Part shown: positions 7,869-25,354 of the stretch, piece by piece | How positions within the stretch are numbered: the first letter of the stretch is position 1 | Layout: each line of letters starts with the position of its first letter | Source: Nitrospira sp. | Lineage (GTDB): Bacteria; Nitrospirota; Nitrospiria; Nitrospirales; Nitrospiraceae | Reading direction: 5' to 3' | Assembly (NCBI GenBank): GCA_018242665.1 | Contig: JAFEBL010000010.1 | Location: 124,001 to 188,000, forward strand | DNA length: 64,000 nucleotides | Position numbers and translations under genes: made by a program | Notes under the pieces: generated by a model | What the model saw: the letters and a program-made list of their open reading frames with translations, nothing else | Told to the model about the DNA's origin: nothing | Databases searched by the model: none

Positions 7869-8663
7869 TCACCCTTCCCGACGTTGGCCCGGTTCCGCAG
7901 GCACGCAACACCTGATTCCGCTGTCCTGTGTAAGGATCTGAACCTCCACTCCGTACAAGAGCTGCAAGCGCTCCTTCGTCATCGCCACTTCAGGGCTGCC
8001 CTGTATCACCACCTTGCCCTGGTGCATCAACACCACTTCGTCGGACGAGAGAAACGCGTGATCGGGAAAATGCGTGGATTTGAGGACCGTGAACCCTTCC
8101 TCTGCCAATCTCCGAACCTCCCGCAAGAGCCGCAGTTGATTGCCGAAGTCGAGGCCGCTCACCGGTTCGTCCATCACCAGAATGCCGGCTCCTTGCGCCA
8201 GGGCCCTGGCAATGAGGGCCAGTTGCCGTTCCCCCCCGCTGAGCTCGGTATAGATCCGTCCGGCCAACTGCGCGATTCCGACCCGCTCCATCGCCTCCTG
8301 CGCCAGGCGATATTCGTCCGCCGAGTAGGTTTGCCTGAACAGATGCCGATGGGCGAAGCGACCCATCAAGACCACCTCGGACACTCGATAGGGAAACGAC
8401 AAGGTATGCGCCTGCGGCACATAAGCCATCTTCCGCGCCCGATCCCGAATACTCAGGCCAGTGACGTTACACCCGTCGAGCCAGACCGCTCCTCCTTGAG
8501 GGCGCAGCAATCCCAACAGAATTTTGATGACGGTGCTCTTGCCGCATCCATTGGGGCCCAGCAGTGCAAGCACACGCCCCCGCGGCACGCGCAACGACAC
8601 CCGATCCAAGACCCGCCGTGGTCCGTATGAAAACGTCACGTCGCGCGCATCCAGGGCGATCAT
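7869..8663 (-). CDS. ABC transporter ATP-binding protein, FecE/MolC type
   Basis: This 264-residue ATPase has Walker A GPNGCGKST, signature LSGGERQ and Walker B ILVMDEP, followed by a D-loop SGLD. Its closest recognisable class is the iron-chelate/cobalamin/MolC ATPases that pair with FecCD permeases. I place the start at the ATG that overlaps the permease stop (ATGA at 8660-8663) rather than at an in-frame GTG three codons upstream. There is no C-terminal TOBE extension, unlike classical ModC. The free-standing TOBE proteins elsewhere in the locus could supply that function in trans, which is inference. In Haemophilus the similar MolBC transporter moves molybdate and tungstate. Confidence 0.9.
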   Translation of the reverse strand: MIALDARDVTFSYGPRRVLDRVSLRVPRGRVLALLGPNGCGKSTVIKILLGLLRPQGGAVWLDGCNVTGLSIRDRARKMAYVPQAHTLSFPYRVSEVVLMGRFAHRHLFRQTYSADEYRLAQEAMERVGIAQLAGRIYTELSGGERQLALIARALAQGAGILVMDEPVSGLDFGNQLRLLREVRRLAEEGFTVLKSTHFPDHAFLSSDEVVLMHQGKVVIQGSPEVAMTKERLQLLYGVEVQILTQDSGIRCCVPAEPGQRREG

Positions 8664-9721
8664 GTCAGCCACCCCGCGCGGCTACGCCGCAGCACGGCAA
8701 TGAAGAGCGGAATGCCGATCAGTTCGGTGGCGACCCCGATCGGAATCTCCGTGCTGAACGAGACCCTCGCAAGATCATCCACGACCAGCAGAAACGCTGC
8801 GCCCAGGAGCGCGCTGCTGGGCAACAACAGCCGATTGTCCGGGCCGACGAGCAGGCGCGCCACATGGGGAATAACCAATCCGATCCAGGCGATCATCCCG
8901 GCCATGCTGACCGTCAATGCGCTGATGAACGTCGCCGCCACAATCACAGCTCCCCTCACCACACGCACATTCACTCCCAACGTCAACGCTTCCTCGTCGC
9001 CCATGCTCAACGCATTGAGTGCCTTCCCGAGGAGCATCAGGATCGTGATCCCGGCCAGGATGGGAAGGGAGAGGGCAAATACCGTGGCGGCATCCACCGC
9101 AGAGAGCCTCCCCATCAACCAGAACACAATGGCGGGAAGCTGGTTGTACGGATCGGCCAACGCTTTCACGACCGACAGCAGCGACGTAAACAACCCGGTG
9201 CTGATGATGCCTCCAAGCACCAGCATGAGCAGCGAGTCCGCCTGATAGATGCGCGCCAGCCCGAGTGAGAGGGACACTGCCGCCAAACCACCGGCGAACG
9301 ACCCCACCTGAACCAGGATCCACCGATCTCCCAACAGCATGGCCACTGCGGCGCCGAACGAAGCGCCGGCCAGCACGCCGAGGAGCCCGGGCGACACGAG
9401 CGGATTTCTGAACATCGCCTGAAATGCCGCTCCGGAGACCGACAGGCCGGCGCCGATCAACATCGCCGCCATCACCCTGGGCAACCGCACCTGGAAGATC
9501 ACGTTCTTGAGTTCGTCGTACCGCGGCGGCTCGATGAGCGGCATCTCCGATGCAAGCGAACACACAAACTGGATGAGTTCACTGACGGAGATCCCGTACC
9601 GCCCGATTCCCAACGAGAAGAGGGCCAGGCCGGCCAGGCTGAGGAGTGATCCCGCGAACCAGAGAGAACCGGCCGCAGACGCCCGCCACCGCGTTGCCAG
9701 AGGGACGGTGCCGACTGTCAT
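8660..9721 (-). CDS. FecCD-family ABC transporter permease (MolB-like)
   Basis: The product is 353 residues with about nine or ten membrane helices. Family motifs include LPRVMAAMLIGAGLSVSGAA near residues 98-118, a GxxxGA region (GLLGVLAGASFGAA) and the C-terminal GLVIPHVARLLVGPDN segment that contacts the ATPase. FecCD permeases form dimers that import iron-siderophores, haem, cobalamin or, in MolB, molybdate and tungstate. The start codon lies immediately next to the tonB stop, and the stop overlaps the ATPase start, giving a tight tonB-permease-ATPase unit. Confidence 0.92.
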   Translation of the reverse strand: MTVGTVPLATRWRASAAGSLWFAGSLLSLAGLALFSLGIGRYGISVSELIQFVCSLASEMPLIEPPRYDELKNVIFQVRLPRVMAAMLIGAGLSVSGAAFQAMFRNPLVSPGLLGVLAGASFGAAVAMLLGDRWILVQVGSFAGGLAAVSLSLGLARIYQADSLLMLVLGGIISTGLFTSLLSVVKALADPYNQLPAIVFWLMGRLSAVDAATVFALSLPILAGITILMLLGKALNALSMGDEEALTLGVNVRVVRGAVIVAATFISALTVSMAGMIAWIGLVIPHVARLLVGPDNRLLLPSSALLGAAFLLVVDDLARVSFSTEIPIGVATELIGIPLFIAVLRRSRAGWLT

Positions 9722-10792
9722 TCACCGGATCCCGTAATTGATGGGAATGCGCAACGTCACATGAGGCGCGCCGAGTTGGTGTTTCAGAGGAACCGGCGAA
9801 AGACGCCTTAAGAGGTCCAATGAGTCACGATCCAGCACCTCATGCCCTGAACTCTCGACGATACTCAATTCCAGGAGATGCCCGTCCGCGCGGATCACCG
9901 CCCGCACGACCACGCGGCCCTCCCACTTGTTCTCGAGCGCGAACTGTGGGTACCGTTTGAGTCGCTCAATCTGGGCCATCACATCGGCTTTCAGCCATCC
10001 GTAATGCGGACGGACCTGTCCCACCGACTGTACCTGCGTGACGACGGGAGTGCGTCGCTCCATGCTGACCGGCTGGGTCTGCACGATGTCTCCTGCGTCA
10101 CGGGAGTCCTCGGCGGGAGCCGCATGCCGGATCGTGGCGACGGCGGTTTCCACCGTCGCCATCTCCTGCACCACTGCCTCCTCTGCCTGGCGCGCATCCG
10201 GCTGGCCTTCACGAGAGACCACCGCCTGAGACCGTGAAACCGGTGCGGCGGCCGCCTGCACGGCCCCAGCAGTCGTGTCCACCGAGTCCTGTCTGCGCTC
10301 TTGCACGACTGGTTGTGTCTGCTGGACGTCGCCGGTCGAATGCACGACGGCGGCGGACGTATCCACGACCGGGGCACGCTCTCGCAGCGCCTCTCGGCTT
10401 ACGACTCGTGATTCAACGGGCGGGAGCGTGCGAGGCTGAATCGTGCGTACCTGCGCCATCGCACGCTGGACCGGCCTGGTCTCAACCACTGGCTTGGCTG
10501 GTCTCTCGAGCGGAGGAGAGGAGGCAGGAGCGGGCATTGCTGGCTCGACGCTTGCCGACGCTGCCGGCGCCGTCGGAGGAGGATCCACCATGGCGACCTC
10601 CCAATGAAATGGCTCGGGTGGAACCGTCGGACGAACATCGATCCGCATAAACAGCGCCGCAACAACGAGCGCGACATGCAGCCCCAGGGACAACGCCCAG
10701 CCCTGCCACCGCAATGTCCTGGCCGAATGAGATGCCTCACTCGTCTTGTCCAGACACTCAACCTGAGAACGCTGCAGTGCCACGTACTCCAT
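9722..10792 (-). CDS. tonB: TonB energy-transducing protein
   Basis: This 356-residue protein has an N-terminal membrane anchor at about residues 30-52 (WALSLGLHVALVVAALF), a long periplasmic linker and a C-terminal TonB domain. The final domain shows YPQFALENKWEGRVVVR, then ADGHLLELSIVESSG, ending in LRIPINY. The linker is not the usual Pro-Lys/Pro-Glu repeat. It is rich in Val, Gln, Arg, Glu and Thr, with recurring QTQPV, ERR and VVSRE units. The gene sits with two TonB-dependent receptors and the importer, so it is probably the dedicated energiser. ExbB and ExbD are not in this window. The ribosome binding site is weak, so the exact start is uncertain. Confidence 0.9.
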   Translation of the reverse strand: MEYVALQRSQVECLDKTSEASHSARTLRWQGWALSLGLHVALVVAALFMRIDVRPTVPPEPFHWEVAMVDPPPTAPAASASVEPAMPAPASSPPLERPAKPVVETRPVQRAMAQVRTIQPRTLPPVESRVVSREALRERAPVVDTSAAVVHSTGDVQQTQPVVQERRQDSVDTTAGAVQAAAAPVSRSQAVVSREGQPDARQAEEAVVQEMATVETAVATIRHAAPAEDSRDAGDIVQTQPVSMERRTPVVTQVQSVGQVRPHYGWLKADVMAQIERLKRYPQFALENKWEGRVVVRAVIRADGHLLELSIVESSGHEVLDRDSLDLLRRLSPVPLKHQLGAPHVTLRIPINYGIR

Positions 10793-10843
10793 GAACCACG
10801 ACCATCAGTTTCCTCGAGTCCGTCCATGGCACAATCCCCGCTG

Positions 10844-10878
10844 AATGAAAGGCAGGGAGCCTGCTGGGGCTCCCTGCC
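10844..10878 (-). terminator. Rho-independent terminator after the coiled-coil lipoprotein gene
   Basis: GGCAGGGAGCC (10851-10861) and GGCTCCCTGCC (10868-10878) form a perfect 11-bp stem with a 6-base loop. Read on the minus strand, the stem is followed by TTTCATT. It lies 65 bases past the lipoprotein stop and upstream of tonB, so it probably separates the receptor/binding-protein unit from the tonB-importer unit or attenuates read-through. Confidence 0.6.
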
Positions 10879-10943
10879 AGTCGGGAACAGCGATGGGGTC
10901 AGGCATCACCGTTCGCGGAGTCGCGTTGCGCGACGGGGGCTCT

Positions 10944-11498
10944 TCAATTCGTGCGTGTCGATTCATCCGGCGTGTTGGCCGGTTGATGCTCTGGCTTCTG
11001 CGAGTCAGGTTTCGATCCTTCCACCGCGGCGGGCTGTCCCGCCCCGACCGACTGCACCGGAGGCGAAGTCCGCCCTTGCTCCATCTGCAGAATCGAATCA
11101 TCCAATCGTTTCAACCGCTGCTGAAGATCTGCCTGTTCCGATTTCAAGGCATGCAGAATCGCGTCGCGGAGCACCCGATTGGTTTCCTGGCTCGACGCCC
11201 GTTCCTTGACGGCATATTCCTGGCGAATATGCAGGTCCTGCATTCGCTTCGAGAGCGCCGTCAGATGCTGTTCCTGGTTTTTGAGGTCCGTCGTCATCCT
11301 CGACTGCCATTCCTCCGACGCCTTTCTGGACGCATCCGCCTTGGCGAGGGCTCGATCGTACGTAGTGCGCGTCGCGTCCAGTTCCTTCTGCATATCCTGC
11401 CTAATGCTCGTGAGCTCTTGAGAGCTGGCGCATCCCGTCAAGAGACACCCGACGGACAGCCATGGGAACAATCCCCGTCTCAGTGCGTTGGTGTGCAT
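10944..11498 (-). CDS. Coiled-coil lipoprotein of unknown function
   Basis: This 184-residue product begins at the ATG at 11498, preceded by GAAAGGAA. A signal peptide ends in the lipobox LTGC (Cys at about residue 22). The next 120 residues are charged, heptad-like helix (for example DMQKELDATRTTYDRALAK and LQQRLKRLDDSILQMEQ). The tail is Pro/Gln/Ser-rich. Its start overlaps the end of the TOBE-2 gene by 19 bases, indicating coupling. I do not recognise the family. The location suggests an outer-membrane or periplasmic accessory of the uptake system. Confidence 0.75.
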   Translation of the reverse strand: MHTNALRRGLFPWLSVGCLLTGCASSQELTSIRQDMQKELDATRTTYDRALAKADASRKASEEWQSRMTTDLKNQEQHLTALSKRMQDLHIRQEYAVKERASSQETNRVLRDAILHALKSEQADLQQRLKRLDDSILQMEQGRTSPPVQSVGAGQPAAVEGSKPDSQKPEHQPANTPDESTRTN

Positions 11499-11989
11499 CG
11501 CTTGTTCCTTTCGTCTCGGCGTGCGCCCGCCACCGGCGCCTCGGATGTCTTCTTCACCGCCTGGTCCAGCGCGGGCCAACCGAACGGCACGACCCGCAAG
11601 GCTGCAGCCTCGATACTGACCCGCACCTGGTCTTCTGGCTGGATCGGGCGATGCACACAATCGGAGATGTTCGTACTGACGAGGGTGAGCGGTTGCCCGA
11701 CAATTTTGACCGTGACGACGATCTCTCCATTGCGGTACTGGCTGGCGAGCACCCGTCCGGCCCATTCATTGCCGGAGACGCAAGGGGACAGTCTGGGAGA
11801 GGCGATTTTCACATCGGTACTCGGCACGGTCAGGCGAACTCGCTGCCCCGGCGCGAGAGGGATGCGCGGGAGTCCGATCATGGCGCGCTCGACCGTGAGA
11901 CAGGCTCCCTCGTCGGTGTGCAGATGCACCGCCCGATCGTTTCTTGCTCCACAGGAAAGCAGCGTGGCCGGCGTCTCATTGACAATCAT
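11480..11989 (-). CDS. Stand-alone TOBE (molbindin-like) protein 2
   Basis: The product is 169 residues, taken from the ATG at 11989 behind GAAAGGTG; the longer frame from 12097 has no ribosome binding site. It parallels the ModC C-terminal di-TOBE region: APGQRVRLTVPSTDVKIAS, NEWAGRV, VTVKIVGQPLTLVST and a final EDQVRVSIEAAALRVV. It is a clear paralogue of the protein at 70-756, and the two share the same order of blocks. Such domains bind molybdate or tungstate. Without an ATPase domain it may store the oxyanion or sense it and regulate the nearby transporter. An AT-rich palindrome lies 40 bases upstream of its start. Confidence 0.72.
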   Translation of the reverse strand: MIVNETPATLLSCGARNDRAVHLHTDEGACLTVERAMIGLPRIPLAPGQRVRLTVPSTDVKIASPRLSPCVSGNEWAGRVLASQYRNGEIVVTVKIVGQPLTLVSTNISDCVHRPIQPEDQVRVSIEAAALRVVPFGWPALDQAVKKTSEAPVAGARRDERNKRCTPTH

Positions 11990-12028
11990 GGCGACACCTT
12001 TCGAACGAGGCAGAGTGTGATCTAGCCG

Positions 12029-12066: not shown

Positions 12067-12124
12067 AATTCCATTCCTGGTTCCCTGCCGTAGGCACTCA
12101 CATCCGGATGTTGCGAGAGGCGAC

Positions 12125-12568
12125 TCAACAATTTTTCTGCTCCTTTCGCCCGGTATCAAATGCCCGGATCAAGGCGCGCGCGCGATCCGTAATCGCATCG
12201 ACTAATTGATCCAGTCGGCCGATCGCCAGAAATCGCAGTTCCCTCGAAGATTCCCGCAGCGGCTTGGGCGTTCCGTAACTGGAGGCGCCTCGTGTTTCCC
12301 AATCCGCCTCCTGCGCGTGGACGATGTCCCGCACCAACAGAGCCTGCCCCTCGCCATGCGGGCCGAATCCGATCACCTTGGCCACGACATGCGGCTTACC
12401 GTCTACGACCGCCGTATGACACGTGAGCGGGTCCTTCACGAGCCACACCTCCAGATCCAGGTCCATGGCCGCGAGTTTCCCCTCCACGCAATTCAGCACC
12501 TTCTGACTCTCCTTGTTTCGTTCCGCCAGTTGTCCCACCAATGCAGACAAGTCACCTAAACTCGACAT
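12125..12568 (-). CDS. Conserved-looking protein of unknown function
   Basis: This 147-residue cytosolic protein starts at an ATG behind GGGGAGG. It has an N-terminal amphipathic helix (LVGQLAERNKESQKVLNCVE), a central beta-rich part with VWLVKDPL and VVAKVIGFGPHGEGQALL, and a C-terminal helix with DQLVDAITDRARALI. No signal peptide or metal motif is evident, and I do not recognise the family. It lies 35 bases after the first binding-protein gene and is cotranscribed in appearance, so it is probably an accessory of the uptake operon. Confidence 0.7.
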   Translation of the reverse strand: MSSLGDLSALVGQLAERNKESQKVLNCVEGKLAAMDLDLEVWLVKDPLTCHTAVVDGKPHVVAKVIGFGPHGEGQALLVRDIVHAQEADWETRGASSYGTPKPLRESSRELRFLAIGRLDQLVDAITDRARALIRAFDTGRKEQKNC

Positions 12569-12602: not shown

Positions 12603-13649
12603 TCACGGCGCTCCGCGCAGCATGTGCTGCACGTCGTCGTCGGTCAGACGGACATGAAAGAACCGCTCGTAGAATCGTTTCGTCTCCTGGGTCAGATCCA
12701 GTCCGGCAACACCCCGGCCATACAACAACTCGGCCGTCCAGACGACCATGAGTGGCTGTTCGGCAGTTCGATATCCCCATGGATGCGCTCCGATTGGAAC
12801 GGCAAAGACCCGCTTCGCTTGCACGGCCTTTACCTGCTGCAACCGCGTATCGGCATACACCTGCGCCACCTCGCCGGGATCGTTCACGATCATCACGTCG
12901 GGATTCCATTGCGCGACGTGTTCGATTGAAAAGTCGAACTGCTCCGAGAGACGGCCGCCCGCGGTGACACTGACTCCACCTGCCTGACTGATCCACCAAT
13001 CTCCGATGAGATGCGGGCTACGCATGCTCTTGAAGCTGGAAAACAGGACTTTGGGACGCTCGGCGGCCGGCCGGTCGGCCACCGCCGTGTGGATGCGCGA
13101 CACGATGTCATCGAACCAGTCCAGATAAGCCTCCGCTTGCGCCTCGGTTTCGAAGACCTGCCCCAGCAGCCGCATGAGGGCGCGCACGTCGCTCTGTTCT
13201 CGCCAAGCCAAGAACAACACGGTGAAGCCTTTGCGCTCCAACAAATTGAGCAACATTTTGTCCATGACGAAGACCACCTGCGGTTTGAGCGCAAGCAGCC
13301 GTTCGATGTCCGGCTCGCCGCCCGGGCCCTGCGTGGTGGGTTGCTGCGCGAGTTGCGGCGCGACTCGCAGATGGAATTTGTACCGCGGCCCCTGCGCGAA
13401 CAACGGCATCCCGTTGACGATCGTGTCAGCCTTGCCCATCGTGAAAATGAAACTGTGGATAACCGGAACAGATCCGACCGCCGCGACACGCTCGATGTGC
13501 GCTGGCAGCGCAACCGTCCGACCCGTCATGTCGGTCACGGTGCGAGCCGGCTGTTGTGCCCCGGCGATCACCGGCAGCGCCACCAGACAGGTGGCACACA
13601 GCGCGAGGATCATCAGGCTCCGCCGAATTTCCCGCAGGTTCATCTGCAT
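12603..13649 (-). CDS. FecB/MolA-type periplasmic substrate-binding protein 1
   Basis: The product is 348 residues, starting at the ATG at 13649 behind GAGGAGGAG. A signal peptide ends at VIAGAQQ. The mature part has the class III binding-protein pattern: VTDMTGRTVALPAHIERVAA at the start, DIERLLALKPQVVFV in the first lobe, a long connecting helix and WNPDVMIVNDPGEV in the second lobe. It ends with HPWGYRTAEQPLMVVWTAELL. This family serves FecCD/FecE transporters for iron chelates, cobalamin or molybdate/tungstate (MolA). It is paralogous to the protein at 14669-15727, and both share a MGK.D/H.IVNG.P block that may shape the ligand pocket. The ligand is inferred from context only. Confidence 0.85.
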   Translation of the reverse strand: MQMNLREIRRSLMILALCATCLVALPVIAGAQQPARTVTDMTGRTVALPAHIERVAAVGSVPVIHSFIFTMGKADTIVNGMPLFAQGPRYKFHLRVAPQLAQQPTTQGPGGEPDIERLLALKPQVVFVMDKMLLNLLERKGFTVLFLAWREQSDVRALMRLLGQVFETEAQAEAYLDWFDDIVSRIHTAVADRPAAERPKVLFSSFKSMRSPHLIGDWWISQAGGVSVTAGGRLSEQFDFSIEHVAQWNPDVMIVNDPGEVAQVYADTRLQQVKAVQAKRVFAVPIGAHPWGYRTAEQPLMVVWTAELLYGRGVAGLDLTQETKRFYERFFHVRLTDDDVQHMLRGAP

Positions 13650-13674
13650 AACGCTCCTCCTCACGGCACAATGC

Positions 13675-14655
13675 TCATGCAAGAAATGGCCAGACCTCTT
13701 CCGCAAACAATCGGAGACTCATCCGGTTGACCGTCTGATCGAGAGACGCGGGTCTGAACACGAGTGACGCCAAGGGCACCTGTGCCGACAGGGCTCGGAT
13801 GGCTTCACGCACCTCGTGCGGATCTCCTACAATCGCGTTCACTTTCAGCTGTTGCGGATCGGGCCCCGTTCGTTCTTGGCCGGGTTCCGTCGGAGGCTGC
13901 ACGTACCCCCGCATCTTGGCTGAAAACGCACCGAGTCCCTCATCGGCGAGACGATGGGCATGGCTGGATGACTTCGCCACGACCAATGGCCGCAGCACCG
14001 TCAGGCTGCACAGACCTTCAGGATTGGCCTCCCGGGCGATTGCGACAATCTCCTGCAGGCGACCGACAGGCCAGGCTTGCGCGCCCAGAAGCCCATACCC
14101 TTGCTTGGTCGCATGCGCCACGAAATCCCGGTCGCTGCTGGCGATGAAGATGGGAATCTCACGTTGTATCGGCTTGGGATGAATCGTCACGTCGCTGAAA
14201 CACACCGACCGACCGGCGACCGACACTCGATCCTCATGGAGCAAGCGGCGGATGGCATCCAGTCGTTCGATGGTGATGGCCCGGCTTTCCGCGGGCGCGA
14301 CCTGGAAGTGCTGTTCCTGCAGCGGAATCGGTCCGCCGCGAGCCACGCCGAAATTGAACCGGCCACCGCTGAGCAGATCGACTGTGGCCACATCCTCCGC
14401 GGTCCGGATGGGATCCTGATACGGCAGCAACACCGCTGCTGTGCCGATTCGCATCCGGGTAGTCAGCGCGGCTAGATGGCCGGCTAATAGGAGGATCGAC
14501 GGACAGGGACTGAACGGCCCGAAATGGTGTTCTGCCAGCCACACCTCATCGAATCCAAGCTCCTCCGCGTCGGACACAAGATGGAGTTGGCGATCATAGG
14601 CCTGTCGCTCATTGTCCCCATAGTTTTCCCAGAAACCGAAGAGGCCGAATCTCAT
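13675..14655 (-). CDS. LLM-class (luciferase-like) flavin-dependent oxidoreductase 2
   Basis: The product is 326 residues from the ATG at 14655 behind GGAGG. It has a bacterial-luciferase-like TIM barrel: MRFGLFGFWE at the start, FDEVWLAEHHFGPF, the GTAAVLLPYQDPIRTAEDVA strand and the LSGGRFNFGVARGG phosphate-binding loop. The family uses reduced FMN or F420 to oxidise organic substrates or cleave C-S or similar bonds. It is sandwiched between two binding-protein genes with gaps of 13 and 25 bases. A paralogue sits at 20591-21619. No leader peptide is present, so it acts in the cytoplasm. Its substrate is unknown, and its presence in a transport operon suggests processing of an imported chelate. 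Confidence 0.85.
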   Translation of the reverse strand: MRFGLFGFWENYGDNERQAYDRQLHLVSDAEELGFDEVWLAEHHFGPFSPCPSILLLAGHLAALTTRMRIGTAAVLLPYQDPIRTAEDVATVDLLSGGRFNFGVARGGPIPLQEQHFQVAPAESRAITIERLDAIRRLLHEDRVSVAGRSVCFSDVTIHPKPIQREIPIFIASSDRDFVAHATKQGYGLLGAQAWPVGRLQEIVAIAREANPEGLCSLTVLRPLVVAKSSSHAHRLADEGLGAFSAKMRGYVQPPTEPGQERTGPDPQQLKVNAIVGDPHEVREAIRALSAQVPLASLVFRPASLDQTVNRMSLRLFAEEVWPFLA

Positions 14656-14668: not shown

Positions 14669-15727
14669 TTACGGCAGGCCGGACAAGATGGCCTGCACCT
14701 GCTCATCGGAAACGGTCAGGCCGAAAAAGCGTGAGTAAAACTCCTTCATTTCCCCTTCCAAATCCAGCGACTGAAACCTGTCCGGATGCAGCAACTTGGC
14801 AATCCACCACAGTCCGAGCGGTTGCTCCGGGGTGTAATGCGTCCACAGATGTCCTCCGCGGGGAACCGGATAGACCTGCTTCGATTTCACCGCGGTTAGA
14901 TGACGCAATCGTTCATCACGCAAGGTCTGCTCGGCTTGCGCCGGGGTCATGACGATCAGGAGAGAGGGATTCCACGCCAACAGTTGTTCCGTGGTGAAGG
15001 GCAGATTGTCCAACGCCCCGAGCGCGACCGAGCCGGGTACTGGCGTGCCACCAGCCGCGCCGATAAGCCATCTGGCCGTGGTTCCCATCGGCTGCGTCAT
15101 CGTGTCCATCCGGCCATACATCGCTTTCGGACGGGCGTCTCCTGGCAATGCCTCTATGGCGGCTGCGATTCGCACGAGCACCTGTCGGCGATAGTCCAAA
15201 TAGTCCTGGACACGGCCTGGCTCATTAAAAATATCTCCCAGGAGCGCCATCGTCTCGGTGACGCTGTCGGCGGACTTCCACGTCAGGACGACGGCGGGCA
15301 CCCCGCGGCTCTGAATAGCTTCGGCGCTCACGGCATCGACGACAAACGCAATGTCCGGGCGCAGGGCGAGGAGGCGTTCCATGTCTGGCACCCAATCAGG
15401 CGGCTCTGAAATCGCCGGCAGGTCCGCCAATTGAGGGGCCAGGATCGTGTGCAGGCGCCATCGGCTCTCCTGGCCTTTCATGAATCGTGGCAGCCCGTTC
15501 ACAATCAGGTGGCCTTTCCCCATCACGAATAAGAAGGTATTGATCGCCGGAGTGCCGCCTGCCGTCACCACCCGGGTGGGCGAAGCCGGCACCAGCACGT
15601 GGCGCCCCGCCATATCGATGATCATATGGCTGGTGTCCCGCGGTTCCGCTTGTGCAAGGCCTGGAACCAGCAGCACCGAGATGACGACGGTGAGGCTGAG
15701 GAGGAACGCGGACGTTCGGGTGAGCAT
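14669..15727 (-). CDS. FecB/MolA-type periplasmic substrate-binding protein 2
   Basis: This 352-residue protein has a signal peptide ending at GLAQAEP. The mature domain shows the same blocks as the paralogue at 12603-13649: IIDMAGRHVLVPASPTRVV, NTFLFVMGKGHLIVNGLP, DMERLLALRPDIAFVV and WNPSLLIVMTPAQ. Near the C-terminus is HYTPEQPLGLWWIAKLLHP, followed by EFYSRFFGL, which is typical of periplasmic proteins for iron-complex and MolA-type importers. The gene begins 2 bases after the stop of the TonB receptor gene, so receptor and binding protein are coupled. Two binding proteins with one permease suggests two ligands or two affinities. Confidence 0.87.
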   Translation of the reverse strand: MLTRTSAFLLSLTVVISVLLVPGLAQAEPRDTSHMIIDMAGRHVLVPASPTRVVTAGGTPAINTFLFVMGKGHLIVNGLPRFMKGQESRWRLHTILAPQLADLPAISEPPDWVPDMERLLALRPDIAFVVDAVSAEAIQSRGVPAVVLTWKSADSVTETMALLGDIFNEPGRVQDYLDYRRQVLVRIAAAIEALPGDARPKAMYGRMDTMTQPMGTTARWLIGAAGGTPVPGSVALGALDNLPFTTEQLLAWNPSLLIVMTPAQAEQTLRDERLRHLTAVKSKQVYPVPRGGHLWTHYTPEQPLGLWWIAKLLHPDRFQSLDLEGEMKEFYSRFFGLTVSDEQVQAILSGLP

Positions 15728-18066: not shown

Positions 18067-18076
18067 CACCGGCGCC

Positions 18077-20377
18077 TTAAAATTTGGCTCCCACCGTCAA
18101 TGCCACGGTAAAGGGAGCGCCGGGAAAGTACGATGTCCCGCCGGCGAACGTTTCATCGAATGAATTAATCACCCCGATGTATTTCTTATCGAACAAGTTG
18201 AGGAAGCTCACCATCACGAAGCCGTCCTTCATGTAGAACTTTTCAAACAGCTTGCGATCGGCATACATCAGGTTCAGATCCACCGTCATGTAGGGCGCGA
18301 TCTGTTCTGTATTCAGCGCATCGCCGAAACGAGCGCCGACGTAGCGGAAGATCGGCGAGACGGAGAAACCGTTCCAGGTATAGGTCGCTCCGGCTTTGAT
18401 TGTGAGACGCGGCACATTGGGCGATTGCTTCCCCTTGACCGGGGAAAAGACCCCTGTGGCGGTCCTGACATCGTCGAGGAGTTCGGCCTTGTTGTATCCG
18501 CCGGAGGCATAGAAAGAGAGGTTGTCGAGCGGTTGGACGCCCAGTTCCAATTCTCCGCCGTATTGCCGGCCTTCCGCAGCAGCCGTCGGTACGGAGGTAT
18601 TGATGGCGGTATCGAAGATATTGATGAGCTGGTGATGCACCAGGTTGTAGAACAGGACCGGAGCCACGTACCACGTGTCCCCCTTGTAACGGAATCCCAG
18701 ATCGAACTTGTCGGCGGTTTCCAAGCGCATCGACCCAACCAGATAGTCGAGGGTCAAACCTTGACTGACAAACGCCGCTCGATTCTGATTGAACACGCTC
18801 ATGAGGCTAGGGAAACCTCTCGGCCTCGCATATTGCCGACCGTAGCTGGCATACAGCGCGATACGATCCGTGAGGTCGTAGCTCAATCCCAGATTGGGCA
18901 GGATCTGTCCCTGGATCCGGCGTCCATAACTGGCGCCTGGATCCCTGGCCGGATTCTGGGCGTAGGCTTGATCCAACGACACATCGCCGACACCCGTCGG
19001 CACGAGCGCATTTTTCCCCACCTCGTTCATGTAGAGATAGCGGACGCCGCCGTCGATATGAAGACGCTGCACATCCTTCACGAACCGCACATACGGGCTA
19101 TGAAACTGGGACACCCCGTCGTTCTCCGTCAGGACGAGCCAATTGTCGAAGGCCACGCCATTACCGACGGGCCGGTAGCCTTTGATGGCCAAGGGATGGT
19201 CGTACCATTCGGACCATACGCCGGCCATGAACGTGGTATCGAAGAGGGTGGTCTTGTATTCGAGAATCGCGCCATAACGCTGAAAATCCGAATTGATCGT
19301 ATCTTGAATGCCGGGGCCGGTTGTGAACGAAGACGTGGGATATTGGAACACGCGCAGATTGGCCACATTGGTAAAGTTATGACGCGTCTCACGCCAGTAG
19401 TACGGTTTCAACGTGATGGAACTCGTCGAGGACGTTTCAATCGCGAGATTGCCCATGAGGCTCGCGCCCCGGAAGGTCTGTTTGTTGAAGCCGAAATAAT
19501 TAATGTCCTGGGCCGCGGCGTTCCGAATCGTGCTGTTGAAATCGAAAAATCGAAATTGGTTGAGGTTGCTCGCTTGCGCGAACGTCAGCGGTCGATAATT
19601 GTTCTCGACGGTCTCTGTGTAGTCCCCGAACAATTCGAATTTGACGTGCCGGCCGAAGTCTTGCGCGAGTCCCATCGAAACATGCGTGCGTCCGTCGGGA
19701 GATTGTCCAGCGCCCCGCCATTTGTCCGCAGTGGTGTAGGAGTACGATGCAAACAGCCTGGTGCCCGTCTTGAGTTGTCCTGAATCCACGCGGCCATAGG
19801 ATCGGTACAAGTCCCACATGCCGTAGGTCTGGCGGAAGGTCAGACCGAATTCGTCGGACGGACGCATCATGGTGGCTTCCATCACGCCGGCGGTATTCGC
19901 CGCTCCGAAACTTTTGTTCACCGGCACCGCGCCCGGATAGAGCGTGATAGTGGAGAAATTCTCCATGTCGAACATGTCCGACCGTGGGCCTGGCGATGAG
20001 ATGCCCCAGACCGGCACCCCCTCGATGGTGAAGCCGGCCGTGATTCCTTGCCGGCCCCTGATCCGCACGCCGCCCGTGTTGTTCAGCAAATTCGTGCTCA
20101 GACCGTACGCGTCGATGGTTTCGAAGTGAACGGACGGAAGGATGTCGATGGCCTTATAGATGGAGGTTTGTCCAGGCCCGGCCAGTTTTTCGATTCCTTC
20201 TTTGGTCACTGTGCGTTCCGTTCGAGGCTGCGCTTGTTTCGATTCCACGATGGAAACCGCTGTGCGCGGAGGTCGCACTTGGATATCTTCTAAATTCACT
20301 TCTTCAGCGCCGCTCATCGAACCGGCACAGAGACTCAGGGCCACAACGCACAGGCTGTGTCGAAGTATGGGTCTCAT
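18077..20377 (-). CDS. TonB-dependent outer-membrane receptor 2
   Basis: The product is 766 residues. The ATG at 20377 lies behind AGGTGGAAA, and the longer frame to 20395 is less likely. The signal peptide ends near SMSGAEE. A putative TonB box EVNLEDIQV is followed by a plug (VRIRGRQGITAGFTIEGVPV, ITLYPGAVPV) and a barrel ending in FTVALTVGAKF. It is the likely product of a duplication shared with the receptor 10 bases downstream. The first gene in a run of about ten minus-strand genes after LLM-1, it may have its own promoter in the 213-base gap up to 20590. Confidence 0.9.
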   Translation of the reverse strand: MRPILRHSLCVVALSLCAGSMSGAEEVNLEDIQVRPPRTAVSIVESKQAQPRTERTVTKEGIEKLAGPGQTSIYKAIDILPSVHFETIDAYGLSTNLLNNTGGVRIRGRQGITAGFTIEGVPVWGISSPGPRSDMFDMENFSTITLYPGAVPVNKSFGAANTAGVMEATMMRPSDEFGLTFRQTYGMWDLYRSYGRVDSGQLKTGTRLFASYSYTTADKWRGAGQSPDGRTHVSMGLAQDFGRHVKFELFGDYTETVENNYRPLTFAQASNLNQFRFFDFNSTIRNAAAQDINYFGFNKQTFRGASLMGNLAIETSSTSSITLKPYYWRETRHNFTNVANLRVFQYPTSSFTTGPGIQDTINSDFQRYGAILEYKTTLFDTTFMAGVWSEWYDHPLAIKGYRPVGNGVAFDNWLVLTENDGVSQFHSPYVRFVKDVQRLHIDGGVRYLYMNEVGKNALVPTGVGDVSLDQAYAQNPARDPGASYGRRIQGQILPNLGLSYDLTDRIALYASYGRQYARPRGFPSLMSVFNQNRAAFVSQGLTLDYLVGSMRLETADKFDLGFRYKGDTWYVAPVLFYNLVHHQLINIFDTAINTSVPTAAAEGRQYGGELELGVQPLDNLSFYASGGYNKAELLDDVRTATGVFSPVKGKQSPNVPRLTIKAGATYTWNGFSVSPIFRYVGARFGDALNTEQIAPYMTVDLNLMYADRKLFEKFYMKDGFVMVSFLNLFDKKYIGVINSFDETFAGGTSYFPGAPFTVALTVGAKF

Positions 20378-20590
20378 CACATTTCCACCTGCCACGGCTA
20401 TTCAGTGCGACAGTGATACAGGAAATAAATGCTAGTTTCCTTGACATGCGCTTCGTTCACCTTTGATTCATGTCAGACGAGTCTTAGGCCTTTTGACCTA
20501 TGGGAAGAAAAACAGAAGCCTGAGAGGGGTGCTATCCGTCCATGCGAAGAGCAGCGTGAGGACTCTGAGCAGGCAGATGAGAGGCGTGAT

Positions 20591-21619
20591 TTACGTTGAG
20601 GGGAACGGGCTGCTACTTGCGAAGGGCGCATCATGCGCCGACCCAAAATAGGGCATCACTTCGTCTGACAGCAGCCGGAGGGAGCGCCGCAGCAAATCTG
20701 GCGGCAAGTATCCAAAGAATCCCATCAGACAGTTGACGTGACGGCTACCGGTGAGATGGGTGAGTTCCAGCAACCGGGTGCGGCAAGTCGCCGGCCCGCC
20801 GGCAATGACCATGTGCTGGTAAAATCGCTCAACCTCTAAATCCGATTCCATCAGGGTTCCGGGCTTCGCGGGGATGCCTGCCTTGCGTAATCGTTCCGTC
20901 AAGAGGTGCAACACCGGCAAGAGCTCCTGCCTGGCCGCCTCATCGCTGATCCCGACATAGACAAAGCGGCCGATCGGGACATGATGGACATCGCCGCCTT
21001 CCGTCTCGAACGCCCGAACGATTCGGCAGATATTGGGGAGCGATTGAATCCCGTGCTGAATCAGGCGATGGCCCTCGCGAGCGGCCCACGCGGCCGTGCT
21101 TTCATTGTAGGTTCCGATGTAGATGGGCGGATTGGGCTGCTGCAGCGGTTTCGGTTGCACATCGAACGACCTCCCGTTCACGCACACCTCTCCCGGTGAC
21201 CAGCACTGGATCAGCGTGGAGAGGTCCCGCTCAAACTCCTTGCGGCCCATGTCCGGATCGACCCCGAATGCCGTGGAATAGTCCCGGTTCCCGCCGCGAG
21301 ACACGCCGAAATCGATGCGCCCTCCGCTCATCACGTCCAGCGTGGCAATCTCCTCTGCCAGCCTGACGGGATGATGAAGTGGAAGAAGCAGCACCGAGAA
21401 TCCGATGCGGATATGCTGTGTATGCGCGGCCAGCTGCGCCGCCGCAATCAAGGGAGAAAAACAGAACCGCCCCCGGCCATCCCGTGGACGTTGAAAGTGT
21501 TCTTCGTTCAACCAGAGCGACTCGAACCCCGCCGCTTCGGCCATCTGCGCAAAGATAGGCCACTGCGCCGGCATGAGCGATTCGAATCCTGCACCGCATC
21601 CTGAAAGACCAAATTTCAT
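20591..21619 (-). CDS. LLM-class (luciferase-like) flavin-dependent oxidoreductase 1
   Basis: The product is 342 residues, from the ATG at 21619 behind CAGGGAG. It has a luciferase-like TIM barrel: MKFGLSGCGAGFES, FESLWLNEEHFQRP, IRIGFSVLLLPLHHPVRLAE and MSGGRIDFGVSRGG. The same barrel blocks occur in the protein at 13675-14655, but overall identity looks moderate, so the two may act on different substrates. Reaction class: FMNH2- or F420-dependent monooxygenation or reduction. It lies 213 bases upstream of receptor 2 on the same strand and probably opens the uptake regulon. Confidence 0.83.
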   Translation of the reverse strand: MKFGLSGCGAGFESLMPAQWPIFAQMAEAAGFESLWLNEEHFQRPRDGRGRFCFSPLIAAAQLAAHTQHIRIGFSVLLLPLHHPVRLAEEIATLDVMSGGRIDFGVSRGGNRDYSTAFGVDPDMGRKEFERDLSTLIQCWSPGEVCVNGRSFDVQPKPLQQPNPPIYIGTYNESTAAWAAREGHRLIQHGIQSLPNICRIVRAFETEGGDVHHVPIGRFVYVGISDEAARQELLPVLHLLTERLRKAGIPAKPGTLMESDLEVERFYQHMVIAGGPATCRTRLLELTHLTGSRHVNCLMGFFGYLPPDLLRRSLRLLSDEVMPYFGSAHDAPFASSSPFPST

Positions 21620-21798: not shown

Positions 21799-22563
21799 TT
21801 ACAGCAGGACCGGCTCCGCATTCACGGCGGGCTCCTGAAGATCGGATGCCCGCCCCCGAGACAACCTGAGGAGCCTGGGGAGGTTAGTCAGAGTGATGAG
21901 TTTACCCTGTGCCAGCAGAAGTTTTTCCGTCTGAAATGCTCCCAATAGACGAGCCAGCGTCTCGGGCGTGATCCCGGTCATTTCTGCCAGCTCTTCCCGT
22001 TTTAACGACATACCAATTTGAATGCCATCCTCCCCGTCCGATCCAAACCGCCTGGCGAGCTCGATCAACGTGGCTGCCAACCGCTCGCGCGCGTTCTTGA
22101 ACGTAAAGGCGTCCAGCTGGGTCAGGTTCGATCGCACTTCGCTACTGAGTAATTCAATGAGCTTGAGGGCCAAGGTGCTGTCTCGCCTGACGAGATCCAG
22201 GTACGCCTTTCGCTCGATCAGGCAAATCTTGCAGGGCTCAAGGGTTTCACACGTGGTCTGGTGGACGGAGTTTTGCGCAAACGCATGTTTCTCGATGATT
22301 TCGCCGGCCTCCAAAATTCTGACAATCAAGCGCTGCCCCTTGTAGGAGGAGCGTGTCAATTTCACCTTCCCGGAGCAAAGCATGTAGAGGCCGATACTGA
22401 GGTGTCCTTCATAAAAGACGACTTGGTTTGCTTGATAGGACAGTGGAATTCGAATGCGGTGAAAATCTTCGAGCTGATGGCCATCCATCTCGAAAATATT
22501 TTCGTGGCCTGTCTTTTTCTGTGTGGTGCAGCAGGGTGAAGTGCGGTCGGCTGGTCTGTTCAT
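21799..22563 (-). CDS. Crp/Fnr-family transcriptional regulator
   Basis: This 254-residue protein has a GGAGAAACCTC ribosome binding site. An N-terminal cyclic-nucleotide-binding-like beta roll (about residues 35-140) is followed by a long dimerisation helix and a winged helix-turn-helix, with MSLKREELAEMTGITPETLA as recognition region. Cysteines occur at 11, 12, 63, 105, 111 and 114. The pattern does not match the Fnr C-x2-C-x5-C motif, but the 105/111/114 cluster (CETLEPCKIC) leaves open metal, redox or Fe-S sensing. It is divergently oriented to the porin-modA genes and head-on upstream of the LLM/receptor operon, so it is well placed to control both. Confidence 0.88.
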   Translation of the reverse strand: MNRPADRTSPCCTTQKKTGHENIFEMDGHQLEDFHRIRIPLSYQANQVVFYEGHLSIGLYMLCSGKVKLTRSSYKGQRLIVRILEAGEIIEKHAFAQNSVHQTTCETLEPCKICLIERKAYLDLVRRDSTLALKLIELLSSEVRSNLTQLDAFTFKNARERLAATLIELARRFGSDGEDGIQIGMSLKREELAEMTGITPETLARLLGAFQTEKLLLAQGKLITLTNLPRLLRLSRGRASDLQEPAVNAEPVLL

Positions 22564-22849
22564 GAGGTTTCTCCATCAGTTCCAAAGCTTGCTGTCCGTC
22601 CAACCTAGGAAACAGCGCACCTGAGAAACCTATCATAGTACATATATTATATTCAAATATACTTGCACAAAAAGAGCCATTCAGCCCAGGGCACTTCAGT
22701 ACTAATGCAATATTGTTGACAAAGTTATTAAACATAATGTATTCAATACCTCATCGGATTGAAGATATTTAAAAACCGCTTTGTCGGCAATTTCTTATAT
22801 GTAGGAATTCGCGCACAGCTAATCGTTCCATGGAGATGAGGAGTTGCAT
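22564..22849. promoter_or_regulatory. Divergent AT-rich promoter region between the Crp/Fnr gene and the porin gene
   Basis: This 286-base spacer is far richer in A/T than its flanks. On the plus strand TTGACA at 22716-22721 followed after 18 bases by TATTCA (22740-22745) is a plausible sigma-70-type promoter for the porin. An imperfect palindrome around 22638-22664 (GTACATATAT facing AAATATAC) could be a regulator site for the minus-strand gene. No strict Fnr or Crp box was found by eye. Confidence 0.45.
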
Positions 22850-24490
22850 ATGTCGATCAAAGCGCTCGGGATTGCCGGAATGCTGACCTCGTTGCTGCTC
22901 AGCCTTCCTCCTTCACAGGCTGCGGCAGTCGAGGAAGGTCAGTTCATCAAGAAAGACGGGAAATGGGAATATTACTCGGGCGAGGACCCGGGCCTGAAAT
23001 ATCTCCTGCTCAAAGGCATCATTTCGCAAGACGAATATGACCGAGGTCTCAAGGTCATCGAGAAACGCGAGCAGGTATCAAAACCCAACTATACAATCGA
23101 CGTGAACAACGGCCTGAACTTCCGTGTCGGAGACAAGTTCTTTCTCAAGCTGCGACTCCTGACGCAGGTTCGCTACACGCACAGCGCCTACAACAGTGCC
23201 TGGGGGACGATCGGAGATTCGCGCAACCCTGAAATCCTCGGCGGCCAAGTTGAATATCGGGCCATCCGGAAACAGAGCGACTCCAACCAATTCAGCGTAC
23301 CCCGTGTCCGCCTTCAATTCCTGGGTTACGCCTTCGACCCCGATTTTCGCTACAACATTTCCTGGGCGTTCGATCAGACCACCTGGAACCAGGAAGGCGG
23401 AAGCGGCAGAGCCGGTCTCCTCGATGCCTATATCTCCTCCTGGCACATTCCCTGGCTGACAGTTCAGGCCGGACAACAGCGCGTATGGTTCAATCGCGCC
23501 ACCATCAGTTCGATGGCCACGTCGACTTTCGCCGATAATCTCATCGTCCAAAACGCCTTCGCGGCCAATCAACAAAACAGCCGCGACATCGGTGTCAGCA
23601 TTTCCAGCGACGAAGACCAATACAAATTCAACTACGCCTTCGGGATTTGGGGCGGCGTGGGAGCGAATCTCGCACGGGAAGGCACCTCGGTCAGCCAAAA
23701 TGTCTTGCCGCAAACCGGCACGCCGGACGCTCCGGGAGCGGCGACCACGCGCACCTATAACTACGATACGCGCTTCTTGACTGGGGAAATGATGTACACC
23801 GCTCGATTGTTGTACAAAATCGCCGGGAATCCCGGTTATGGGCAGGGCGATATTTTAAATTCCCGCACCCTACAATCGGCGATCGCCTTCGGTTATGCCT
23901 ATAACCCAGCGCAAAACTATCTGAGCTCGATCCGTTCCGATATTGTCGATCGCGCTTACCGGCAGGCCATCGTCAAAGCGTACAACGGTCGCTTGCTCGC
24001 CGGCGGCATTTGGGACTTCCAGACCTATGAGGTCGACTTCATCGCCAAGTATCAAGGATGGTCGTTCCAGGCGGAAGGATATTACCGTCACCAACGGCTC
24101 CGCAGCGCCAATAGCGGAACCAGCGCCTTTGACTTGAATACGATCCCGTCGGCCCAATTTCTTGGGCCCCCTGTCAACCTGGGGCAGGCGTACGGATGGT
24201 ACGCGCAGGTGGGGAAATACATCATCCCACGCAAACTCGAACTCGCGGTGCGGTATGGATTTATGGATCCTTCGACCCAGCAGGTGAACGATCTGGTCAA
24301 AGAGTTCGGTGCTGCGATCAACTACAGCTTCGATGGCACCTACAACAACCGGCTCGTGATCGATTACTCGAACATCACAATGGGCAGTGGTGGACGAGCG
24401 CCGGACCGGTTCCCGTTTGAAAGCCAACCAGGATTCGGCAGCGACCTTGTCGAAAATCGGATCAATGTGCAGTACCAGTTCTACTTCTGA
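22850..24490 (+). CDS. OprO/OprP-like phosphate-selective (anion) porin
   Basis: The product is 546 residues from an ATG behind GATGAGGAG. The signal peptide ends at SQAAAVE. A short helical segment (LLLKGIISQDEYDRGLKVI) precedes a 16-strand-type barrel with many alternating aromatic strands (VPRVRLQFLGYAFDPDFRYN, WLTVQAGQQRVWFNR), ending in YQFYF with the terminal Phe. The RLRF/RFSIPRVRL-type start of the barrel is characteristic of phosphate-selective porin O/P. Members favour oxyanions. It lies 39 bases before a ModA-type protein, so molybdate or tungstate is a reasonable substrate, though phosphate or arsenate cannot be excluded. Confidence 0.82.
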   Translation: MSIKALGIAGMLTSLLLSLPPSQAAAVEEGQFIKKDGKWEYYSGEDPGLKYLLLKGIISQDEYDRGLKVIEKREQVSKPNYTIDVNNGLNFRVGDKFFLKLRLLTQVRYTHSAYNSAWGTIGDSRNPEILGGQVEYRAIRKQSDSNQFSVPRVRLQFLGYAFDPDFRYNISWAFDQTTWNQEGGSGRAGLLDAYISSWHIPWLTVQAGQQRVWFNRATISSMATSTFADNLIVQNAFAANQQNSRDIGVSISSDEDQYKFNYAFGIWGGVGANLAREGTSVSQNVLPQTGTPDAPGAATTRTYNYDTRFLTGEMMYTARLLYKIAGNPGYGQGDILNSRTLQSAIAFGYAYNPAQNYLSSIRSDIVDRAYRQAIVKAYNGRLLAGGIWDFQTYEVDFIAKYQGWSFQAEGYYRHQRLRSANSGTSAFDLNTIPSAQFLGPPVNLGQAYGWYAQVGKYIIPRKLELAVRYGFMDPSTQQVNDLVKEFGAAINYSFDGTYNNRLVIDYSNITMGSGGRAPDRFPFESQPGFGSDLVENRINVQYQFYF

Positions 24491-24529
24491 GTCCATATGA
24501 CAGGCCTTTACAGGCTCTTGGAGGACACC

Positions 24530-25354
24530 ATGAGAGCAGGATTTCGAATCAGAGGACTAGTCAGCCTAGTCGGTCTCTTGATCGGGCTGGGTGCCGTGAT
24601 CGAACCGGTCCAGGCACAGCCGGAGACCATCACCATCGCAGCCGCCAATAGCTTGAAGGACGCCCTACGGAAAGTCCTTCCGTTGTTCGAAGCGGAACGC
24701 CGAAACATCACTGTGCGGGTGATTTACGGTCCATCGCAAACACTCCGCAATCAAATCGAACAGGGGGCCCCGGTCGATATTTTCCTGCCGTCGCTGTTCG
24801 AGGAAATCGATCAACTGGAAGGCAAGGGGCTGATCATTCAAGGGACCAAACGCGCGTTCGCGGCGACCTCGCTGGTCCTGATCACAGGGACGACTCTCCC
24901 CGCTCCGATCAGCTCGATTCAGGACCTGCAAACCACTCCGATTCGCCGTATCGCCGTTGGCGACCCGAAAACTTCTTCGGTGGGAAAAGTCGCCGCGCAG
25001 TTTCTAAAGTACAGCAAGCTCGAGCCGAAGCTGAAGTCACAATACGTGCTCGGTGAACACTCTCGAGCCGTCCTCGACCTGGTGGCCAAAGGCGAGGCCG
25101 AAATCGGCGTGGTCTATCGTACCGACGCGATTTCCAATCCAAGCGTTCGTATCCTCGATACCGCACCCGTCGGCTCCCACACTCCGGTGCGGTATGGCGT
25201 CGCCGCCGCCTGGACGGCACAGAACATCTCTGCCGCCGGCGATTTCATTGAATTTCTCCTGAGTCCTACGATCCAAACCCTATTGCAGGAATTCGGATTC
25301 GACCGCGTGTCTCCCGAAGTCGGATTCGCTCAACGAGAAGAGGTGAAACCATGA
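24530..25354 (+). CDS. modA: Molybdate/tungstate-binding periplasmic protein (ModA family)
   Basis: The product is 274 residues from the ATG at 24530 behind GGAGG. The signal peptide ends at VQAQPE. The mature protein begins TITIAAANSLKDALRKVLP, the ModA motif with the oxyanion-binding Ser/Asn, followed by VRVIYGPSQTLRNQIEQGAPVD, IAVGDPKTSSVGKVA and a second-lobe EAEIGVVYRTDAI. These match ModA-like sulphate/molybdate binding folds. No modB permease or classical modC is present in the window, so its partner is elsewhere or it hands ligand to a non-standard transporter. The stop overlaps the next gene's start by 4 bases. Confidence 0.88.
   Translation: MRAGFRIRGLVSLVGLLIGLGAVIEPVQAQPETITIAAANSLKDALRKVLPLFEAERRNITVRVIYGPSQTLRNQIEQGAPVDIFLPSLFEEIDQLEGKGLIIQGTKRAFAATSLVLITGTTLPAPISSIQDLQTTPIRRIAVGDPKTSSVGKVAAQFLKYSKLEPKLKSQYVLGEHSRAVLDLVAKGEAEIGVVYRTDAISNPSVRILDTAPVGSHTPVRYGVAAAWTAQNISAAGDFIEFLLSPTIQTLLQEFGFDRVSPEVGFAQREEVKP

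Follow-up and report, generated by a model that had tools for sequence, protein, structure and literature searches.

What does a TonB-dependent importer carry when its genes lie within the molybdate locus of a Nitrospira genome? The stretch analyzed here (the window) is 64,000 nucleotides long and corresponds to positions 124001–188000 of contig C10 in the genome of a Nitrospira sp. (G000; GenBank assembly GCA_018242665.1), with feature coordinates given as window positions (Table 1). It contains a block of genes for a FecCD-type ABC importer, two TonB-dependent receptors (TBDR1 and TBDR2), a dedicated TonB, two periplasmic binding proteins (SBPa and SBPb), two FMN luciferase-like monooxygenases (LLM1 and LLM2), and free-standing TOBE proteins, next to a canonical molybdate (mod) cluster. 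A preliminary description of this DNA had proposed one integrated uptake system for molybdate, tungstate, or a chelate of these, rather than for iron. We favor, with reasonable confidence, a modified account, in which an accessory importer, spread by horizontal transfer, became inserted in the mod locus as this block and serves molybdenum or tungsten (Mo/W), probably as a chelate.

Insertion of the Block in the mod Locus

Between 22.6 and 7.9 kb, the minus strand of the window encodes, in descending order of position, a CRP/FNR-family regulator, LLM2, TBDR2, TBDR1, SBPb, LLM1, SBPa, a small protein, a di-TOBE protein, a lipoprotein, TonB, the FecCD permease, and the FecE-type ATPase; from 22.8 kb, a porin-like protein, ModA, and a second lipoprotein follow on the plus strand. 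The canonical mod cluster lies upstream of the window on the same contig (about 107.9–123.5 kb) and comprises, in order, ModC, ModB, a helix-turn-helix (HTH)-Mop gene, ModC, ModB, ModA, a porin-like gene (porin2), a lipoprotein, a second ModA, a regulator with HTH_3 and the MoeA-type PBP_like domain PF12727, and a third receptor, TBDR3. Neither ModB nor ModC is encoded in the window block, both being present in the adjoining cluster (G000:C10 108–112 kb). TBDR3 is 42% identical to TBDR1 and 45% identical to TBDR2, which share 37% identity with each other, and the receptors of the block therefore have a close paralog inside the mod cluster itself. The genome encodes one more receptor of this family, the fourth, on contig C2 (L062 9656–11984; 37% identical to TBDR3), with no recognized transport partner around the gene.

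Comparison with relatives shows the insertion of the block. In G055, G145, G094, G110, G289, and G123, the porin-ModA-lipoprotein operon has the PF12727 regulator as its divergent neighbor, 265–592 bp away. The same two flanks are 27.3 kb apart in the window's genome, 19.8 kb apart in G287, and 20.1 kb apart in G210, and the block between them holds TBDR3, TOBE, FecE, FecCD, TonB, SBP, LLM2, and CRP genes. At the same site, G171 retains only the CRP gene and, beside it, a remnant of LLM2 with a broken frame (L087 1830–2526), a deletion scar from which we conclude that the block was lost there. The comparison of gene neighborhoods that the preliminary description had suggested thus finds the block between the mod regulator and the porin-ModA operon, and its picture of one integrated system gives way to two components: the porin-ModA-lipoprotein operon, which belongs to the mod locus ancestrally as its second arm, and the TonB/FecCD block, which became inserted next to this operon. 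The blocks of G287 and G210 (the latter, like G288, from the window's genus) have one SBP and LLM2 only, LLM1 being absent. The CRP/FNR gene adjoins LLM2 in the Nitrospira copies with available flanking sequence, including G171, and a TonB gene is also present in those copies whose operon is complete. In Nitrospira sp. UBC2, a sulfate-type transporter set (a binding protein, two permeases, and an ATPase) adjoins the porin-ModA operon (L026 1112–5135).

A second genus (G110, G322, and G317) carries a TBDR3 ortholog that is 77–80% identical and adjoins LLM2, the operon reading LLM2-TBDR3-TonB-SBP-FecCD-FecE where the contig is complete; LLM2, SBP, and FecCD of this genus are merely 51–62% identical to those of the first. 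The TBDR3 ortholog is thus located in the mod cluster in the first genus and in the LLM2/FecCD operon in the second, accompanying LLM2/FecCD in both arrangements. Next to CRP-LLM2 in G322 and G317 lies a mod-type regulator (HTH and PF12727). Of the 175 genomes in the family, the seven that carry TBDR3 are also the seven that carry intact LLM2, and in three of them TBDR3 lies beside LLM2. Directly after the module in the second genus lie genes for an ACR3-like permease and an ArsC-like arsenate reductase/phosphatase (L025 8671–10268, L028 18280–20340).

Transport, TOBE, and Monooxygenase Proteins

All of the parts named in the preliminary description (FecCD/FecE, TonB, two receptors, two binding proteins, a porin-like protein, ModA, and TOBE) were found on open frames. 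It had overlooked LLM1, LLM2, the CRP/FNR regulator, the coiled-coil lipoprotein near 10944–11500, and the small protein at 12125–12568. The "anion porin" it named is present as a porin-like protein, 36% identical to the porin-like gene of the mod cluster, although the word "anion" lacks profile support given that no Pfam or NCBIfam family matched the protein.

The FecCD permease finds its best solved relative in MolB (HI1471) of Haemophilus influenzae (E 5e-62 vs. 3e-46 for the next; 323 vs. 248 bits in the profile comparison). As a control, the permease of the genome's cobalamin locus favors haem permeases, with MolB ranking fourth. The window ATPase is 41–56% identical to the ATPases of homologous modules outside the genus. 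The model of SBPa (predicted local distance difference test, pLDDT, 92) matches MolA (3psa) as its second-best fold, after an uncharacterized Veillonella protein.

The free-standing TOBE protein at 11480–11989 proved to be real, scoring above the TOBE_2 cut-off, and has a tandem TOBE fold with no ATPase or HTH domain. Its AlphaFold2 model (mean pLDDT 76, from an alignment of seven rows) can be superposed on ModG and on the di-Mop domain of ModE over almost the full length of these two, with TM-scores of 0.66–0.70 when normalized by them. The model also matches TOBE domains of polyamine and sugar ATPases, and the fold alone is therefore no proof of Mo binding. The further TOBE protein proposed at 70–756, which lies at the opposite end of the inserted block, is a homolog of the first (29% identity), though its own score falls just under the cut-off. 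A gene of this second type adjoins TBDR3 in G000, G210, G287, and G288.

LLM1 and LLM2 are the sole luciferase-family (PF00296) genes in the whole genome. The nearest relatives of LLM2 are the alkanal monooxygenase alpha chain and PuwE, and it falls below the cut-off for every NCBIfam subfamily listed, including NtaA/EmoA and SsuD (32.3 bits for TIGR03860, the NtaA/EmoA family, against a cut-off of 279.7). TIGR03860 is also not among the best 25 families for LLM1. LLM1 was rejected as a marker gene for the module, occurring in just two genomes in the phylum, and LLM2 is the conserved one.

Distribution of the Module Outside Nitrospira

When 84,980 species genomes were scanned with LLM2, 25 loci were returned, in Nitrospira, Candidatus Nitrotoga, three Nitrobacter, Hyphomicrobium, Methylosinus and other Methylocystaceae, Methylomonas, Sulfuricurvum, Afipia, Mesorhizobium, and others. 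The LLM2 relatives, 43–81% identical and from many genera, lie mostly beside SBP, FecCD, and TBDR genes, and in most loci LLM2 is within a few genes of SBP, FecCD, FecE, and TBDR. The receptor, TonB, binding protein, permease, and ATPase all occur together in the window block, and the receptor, binding protein, permease, and ATPase are also together in Nitrotoga, Hyphomicrobium, Methylosinus, and Nitrobacter; on Methylocystis and Methylosinus plasmids, a compact TBDR-SBP-FecCD-FecE-LLM module is found. In the LLM2 tree, Nitrotoga, Methylomonas, and Janthinobacterium join Nitrospira (support 84/82), which suggests that the module spread horizontally. The module is rare, order- and class-wide searches with the SBP profile giving 4/397 and 2/369 genomes, respectively.

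Mo-related genes lie near several copies outside Nitrospira. In Hyphomicrobium LHD-15, a Mop gene separates FecE from the receptor; G922 has a di-Mop gene 2.3 kb from SBP; Nitrotoga has a TOBE-bearing ATPase 4.6 kb from LLM2; and in Mycobacterium bohemicum a lone LLM2 relative has an HTH-Mop gene at a distance of 2.8 kb. Based on 113 TOBE matches in about 93.5 Mb, 0.02 TOBE genes are expected per 20-kb neighborhood, or about 0.6 in 23 loci, with 3 observed; this excess of Mo genes near module copies is suggestive only.

Other neighbors vary among the copies. In both Afipia and Janthinobacterium, a radical SAM protein is encoded next to the module (52% mutual identity; L040 14863–15936, L042 1549–2739), one of the two having a BioB-like BATS region, and may possibly take part in ligand chemistry. 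A DUF364 gene (PF04016, "putative heavy-metal chelation") is present in several related loci (L030 6771–8595, L023, L035, and L075), accompanied by a methyltransferase in Nitrotoga and Paracoccus.

Promoter Elements and Regulation

A 29-bp element, TATCAKGATARATTA-N5-TGTCAASTA, precedes the PF12727 regulator in G000, G287, G210, G288, and G171. The element recurs in G000, G287, G210, and G288 in the divergent promoter region between TBDR3 and the operon of a small gene and di-TOBE, and no further site with up to 4 mismatches was found in 537 kb. Paired sites within each genome have 19–22 of 29 bases in common, compared with a best of 18 in AT-rich control windows, and one chance site reached 22/29 in all control windows together. 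The orientation of the sites suggests that the element may drive the regulator and the di-TOBE operon, and any relevance to TBDR3 would come from the common intergenic region.

The inverted repeat upstream of TBDR2 (20442–20475) also has counterparts in the mod locus of relatives. A search for TGACAK-N11..23-MTGTCA in 517 kb returned, besides this repeat, three sites, which are mod regulator promoters in relatives, with a spacer ten bases shorter. Both motifs were spotted post hoc. An operator common to all mod regulator genes and the block was considered and rejected, as the site of the baseline regulators, TGACAKA-N10-TMTGTCA, is absent before TBDR3 and LLM2.

Proposed Function and Alternative Explanations

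From gene content, insertion, paralogy, phylogenetic profile, folds, and common promoter elements, all of which are observed, we infer the metal. The Mo link, for which the preliminary description had relied on a weak TOBE and a ModA, now has independent comparative evidence in the insertion of the block in the mod locus, the placement of the receptor orthologs, and the matching profiles of TBDR3 and LLM2; the MolB-like permease, the di-Mop-like fold, and the Mop genes beside proteobacterial copies point the same way. We consider it likely that the chain from TBDR and TonB through SBP and FecCD/FecE to TOBE serves Mo/W. TBDR1 and TBDR2, and TBDR3 of the mod cluster, would carry Mo or W species over the outer membrane, energized by the local TonB; the FecB/MolA-type binding proteins would pass these species to the MolB-like permease with its FecE/MolC-type ATPase; and the di-Mop-like TOBE proteins are predicted to bind the oxyanion in the cytoplasm.

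The preliminary description had left the substrate as an oxyanion or its chelate. Of these, the chelate half is favored, since two flavin monooxygenases fit a bare oxyanion poorly. An organic Mo (or W) chelate would be the most likely ligand, a step to which we give roughly even chances, and a cytoplasmic FMN monooxygenase might then oxidatively break the chelate and free the metal, which we advance tentatively. Both steps are proposed because small oxyanions pass porins without TonB and a monooxygenase consistently accompanies the module. As no metallophore synthesis genes were recognized in the block, the chelate would be scavenged. The full composite, a mobile molybdophore system in which TonB receptors and a MolB-like importer would bring in an organic Mo/W chelate for release by the FMN monooxygenase to di-Mop proteins, spread among nitrite oxidizers and methylotrophs, is more speculative still, and we would place it short of an even chance.

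Several observations weigh against Mo/W uptake by this block. The conserved GxHxW(G/A)xRTxEQ motif of the SBPs is absent from MolA in the alignment, which would fit a ligand other than bare molybdate, and YiuA, crystallized with iron-catechol and iron-nitrilotriacetate (NTA), ranks after MolA among the fold matches of SBPa. Most copies outside Nitrospira have no TOBE gene within 10 kb, and the copy in Methylocystis sp. MJC1 adjoins a pyrroloquinoline quinone (PQQ) methanol/ethanol dehydrogenase gene (L019 16877–20647), a possible lanthanide link. ModB exceeds its cut-off in 22 of the 24 module carriers (no ModB does so in G322/G248, 94% complete), which rules out the module as a general ModABC substitute. 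TBDR1, TBDR2, LLM1, and SBPb are additions found solely in the block of this genome, and the co-occurrence of TBDR3 and LLM2 is partly due to physical linkage.

The main rival is an iron-chelate importer (for a xenosiderophore or of the ferric-citrate type) that is parked in the mod locus by chance or that supplies iron together with Mo to Fe-S molybdoenzymes such as nitrite oxidoreductase (NXR). The receptor family scores best with siderophore receptors, the binding-protein branch includes YiuA, and a predicted bifunctional Fe-Mo cluster of Acidithiobacillus provides a published precedent (PMC2631029). The exclusion of iron in the preliminary description lacks support, as the ligand is unreadable from sequence. 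Against iron stand the TOBE proteins within the block, the receptor ortholog in the mod cluster itself, and the permease nearest MolB. Also, no Fur-box-like site with up to 3 mismatches to the E. coli consensus, from which the Fur sites of Nitrospira may differ, was found in the window; this argues against, without fully excluding, a classical Fur-regulated siderophore operon. On balance, we regard an iron-chelate importer as unlikely. Cobalamin uptake (BtuCDF) was rejected, there being no cobalamin riboswitch and the genome's cobalamin-type locus lying on contig C45.

Less probable again is a MolABC-like importer of free molybdate or tungstate, whose receptors would just raise outer-membrane flux at trace levels and whose monooxygenases would act elsewhere. 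Among solved relatives whose ligand is known, MolB and MolA are indeed the closest; however, MolBC-A is a low-affinity route that, as described, has neither receptor nor monooxygenase (PMC4031551), the SBP motif differs from MolA, and the module is constantly accompanied by LLM2. The occurrence of the module largely in nitrite oxidizers and methylotrophs, the PQQ dehydrogenase gene beside one copy, and the mox genes beside the Paracoccus relative could instead indicate another metallophore (of copper, a lanthanide, or other), which we think very improbable given that the PQQ and mox neighbors are not conserved, whereas Mo neighbors recur in Nitrospira, Hyphomicrobium, and G922. Weakest of all is sulfur scavenging, in which the monooxygenases would desulfonate an organosulfur compound imported by the TonB/ABC route: alkanesulfonate-type enzymes also belong to PF00296 and one relative has sulfate-type transporter genes beside the porin-ModA operon, but LLM2 has its closest relatives in the alkanal monooxygenase alpha chain and PuwE rather than in SsuD, the sulfate-type genes lie elsewhere in the window's genome, and we know of no FecCD importer for sulfonates.

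Comparison with Known Systems

Uptake of Mo/W by this block would differ from each of the systems to which it bears a likeness. MolABC (HI1470-1472) of Haemophilus influenzae carries molybdate and binds tungstate (PMC4031551), and shares with the block a FecCD-type permease, the closest solved one, and a FecB-type binding protein, the second-best fold match. As described, MolABC lacks a TonB receptor, TonB, a TOBE protein, and a monooxygenase, all four of which the block has, and the conserved motif of the block SBPs. ModABC with Mop/ModE-type regulation is alike in that the block lies inside such a locus, to which the window's ModA and porin belong, and differs in having a permease family other than FecCD and no outer-membrane receptor.

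The predicted Fe-Mo transport cluster of Acidithiobacillus ferrooxidans, read as bifunctional for Fe and Mo, resembles the block by its description, a single island holding two receptors, TonB, a pair of siderophore-type binding proteins, and a ModA-like protein, and differs in its link to nitrogenase, with no monooxygenase mentioned (PMC2631029). In Pseudomonas aeruginosa, the type VI secretion system (T6SS)-ModA-IcmP route captures molybdate with secreted ModA and IcmP (reviewed in PMC8602904); it is alike in capturing molybdate at the outer-membrane level and unlike in having no TonB/FecCD module. Azotobacter takes up Mo as an organic chelate by means of molybdophores, the transport proteins not being defined there (PMC3440940), while in the block no chelator biosynthesis genes were recognized. 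In the descriptions of these four systems (MolABC, the Acidithiobacillus cluster, T6SS-ModA-IcmP, and the Azotobacter molybdophores), TonB receptors, a MolB-like importer, TOBE proteins, and luciferase-like monooxygenases never occur together.

The chelate monooxygenases NtaA and EmoA attack metal chelates after uptake and are members of the PF00296 superfamily. This superfamily is common to LLM1 and LLM2, which nevertheless lie outside the NtaA/EmoA subfamily.

In the open-access literature, we found no characterized TonB receptor for Mo (a paper in a subscription journal could be missed), nothing relevant on TonB with Mo in Nitrospira or on TonB with luciferase-like monooxygenases, and no demonstration of energy-driven Mo/W uptake by this route.

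Other Features of the Window

The coiled-coil lipoprotein is the C-terminal part of a longer frame (10944–11765), with a start near MHTNALRRGLF. Copies of the small protein occur in three sister genomes (50–81% identical), and it is retained in the modules of the window's genus. A plus-strand frame at 10845–12020 was not counted as a gene, being a long antisense frame with no family match.

The PEP-CTERM protein with two Oxidored_molyb domains, also within the inserted block, has a distant relative beside the Nitrotoga receptor. Directly downstream of it lies an exosortase W gene (NF038142 above the cut-off; window 769–3508 for both), and the two are a possible dedicated exosortase-substrate pair inside the block. 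Further along, positions 52000–58000 have a G+C content of 51–53%, compared with about 60% around, and contain a papain-like protease gene.

Table 1. Features of the inserted block and the adjacent porin-ModA operon, in window positions.
Feature	Position	Strand	Evidence
Second di-TOBE protein, opposite end of inserted block	70–756	+	TOBE_2 20.5 bits, just below cut-off
PEP-CTERM protein with two Oxidored_molyb domains	769–1872	+	PF00174 64.3 bits; within inserted block
ABC ATPase, FecE/MolC type	7869–8672	-	ABC_tran 109.5 bits
FecCD-family permease, MolB-like	8660–9721	-	FecCD 262.7 bits
Dedicated TonB	9722–10792	-	TonB_C 56.2 bits
Coiled-coil lipoprotein	10944–11501	-	Signal peptide and lipobox-like sequence in translation
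Free-standing di-TOBE (di-Mop-like) protein	11480–11989	-	TOBE_2 27.9 bits (cut-off 21)
Small conserved protein	12125–12568	-	No family match
Periplasmic binding protein SBPa	12603–13706	-	Peripla_BP_2 65.1 bits; true start probably inside the frame
LLM1, FMN luciferase-like monooxygenase	13675–14652	-	PF00296 183.6 bits
Binding protein SBPb	14669–15727	-	Peripla_BP_2 58.7 bits; 37% identical to SBPa
TonB-dependent receptor TBDR1	15730–18069	-	TonB_dep_Rec barrel 91.3 bits
TonB-dependent receptor TBDR2	18077–20395	-	Barrel 94.3 bits and plug
Inverted repeat TGACATG-N20-CATGTCA	20442–20475		Upstream of receptor operon (TBDR2)
LLM2, conserved FMN luciferase-like monooxygenase of the module	20591–21616	-	PF00296 141.6 bits
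CRP/FNR-family regulator	21799–22563	-	cNMP_binding and HTH_Crp_2
Porin-like outer-membrane protein, 548 aa	22844–24490	+	36% identical to porin2 of mod cluster
ModA-family binding protein	24497–25354	+	TIGR01256 148.6 bits (curated cut-off 62.5)
Lipoprotein ending porin-ModA operon	25351–26085	+	28% identical to mod-cluster lipoprotein

Implications

Nitrite oxidizers rely for their energy on a Mo enzyme, and Azotobacter is known to have molybdophores. If the proposed function is correct, the block would name a receptor, an importer, and a candidate release enzyme for Mo complexes in nitrite oxidizers, and would provide a clade of luciferase-like monooxygenases with its first physiological role. 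Should the molybdophore reading also hold, the system would have spread among nitrite oxidizers and methylotrophs, organisms whose key enzymes need much Mo or W.

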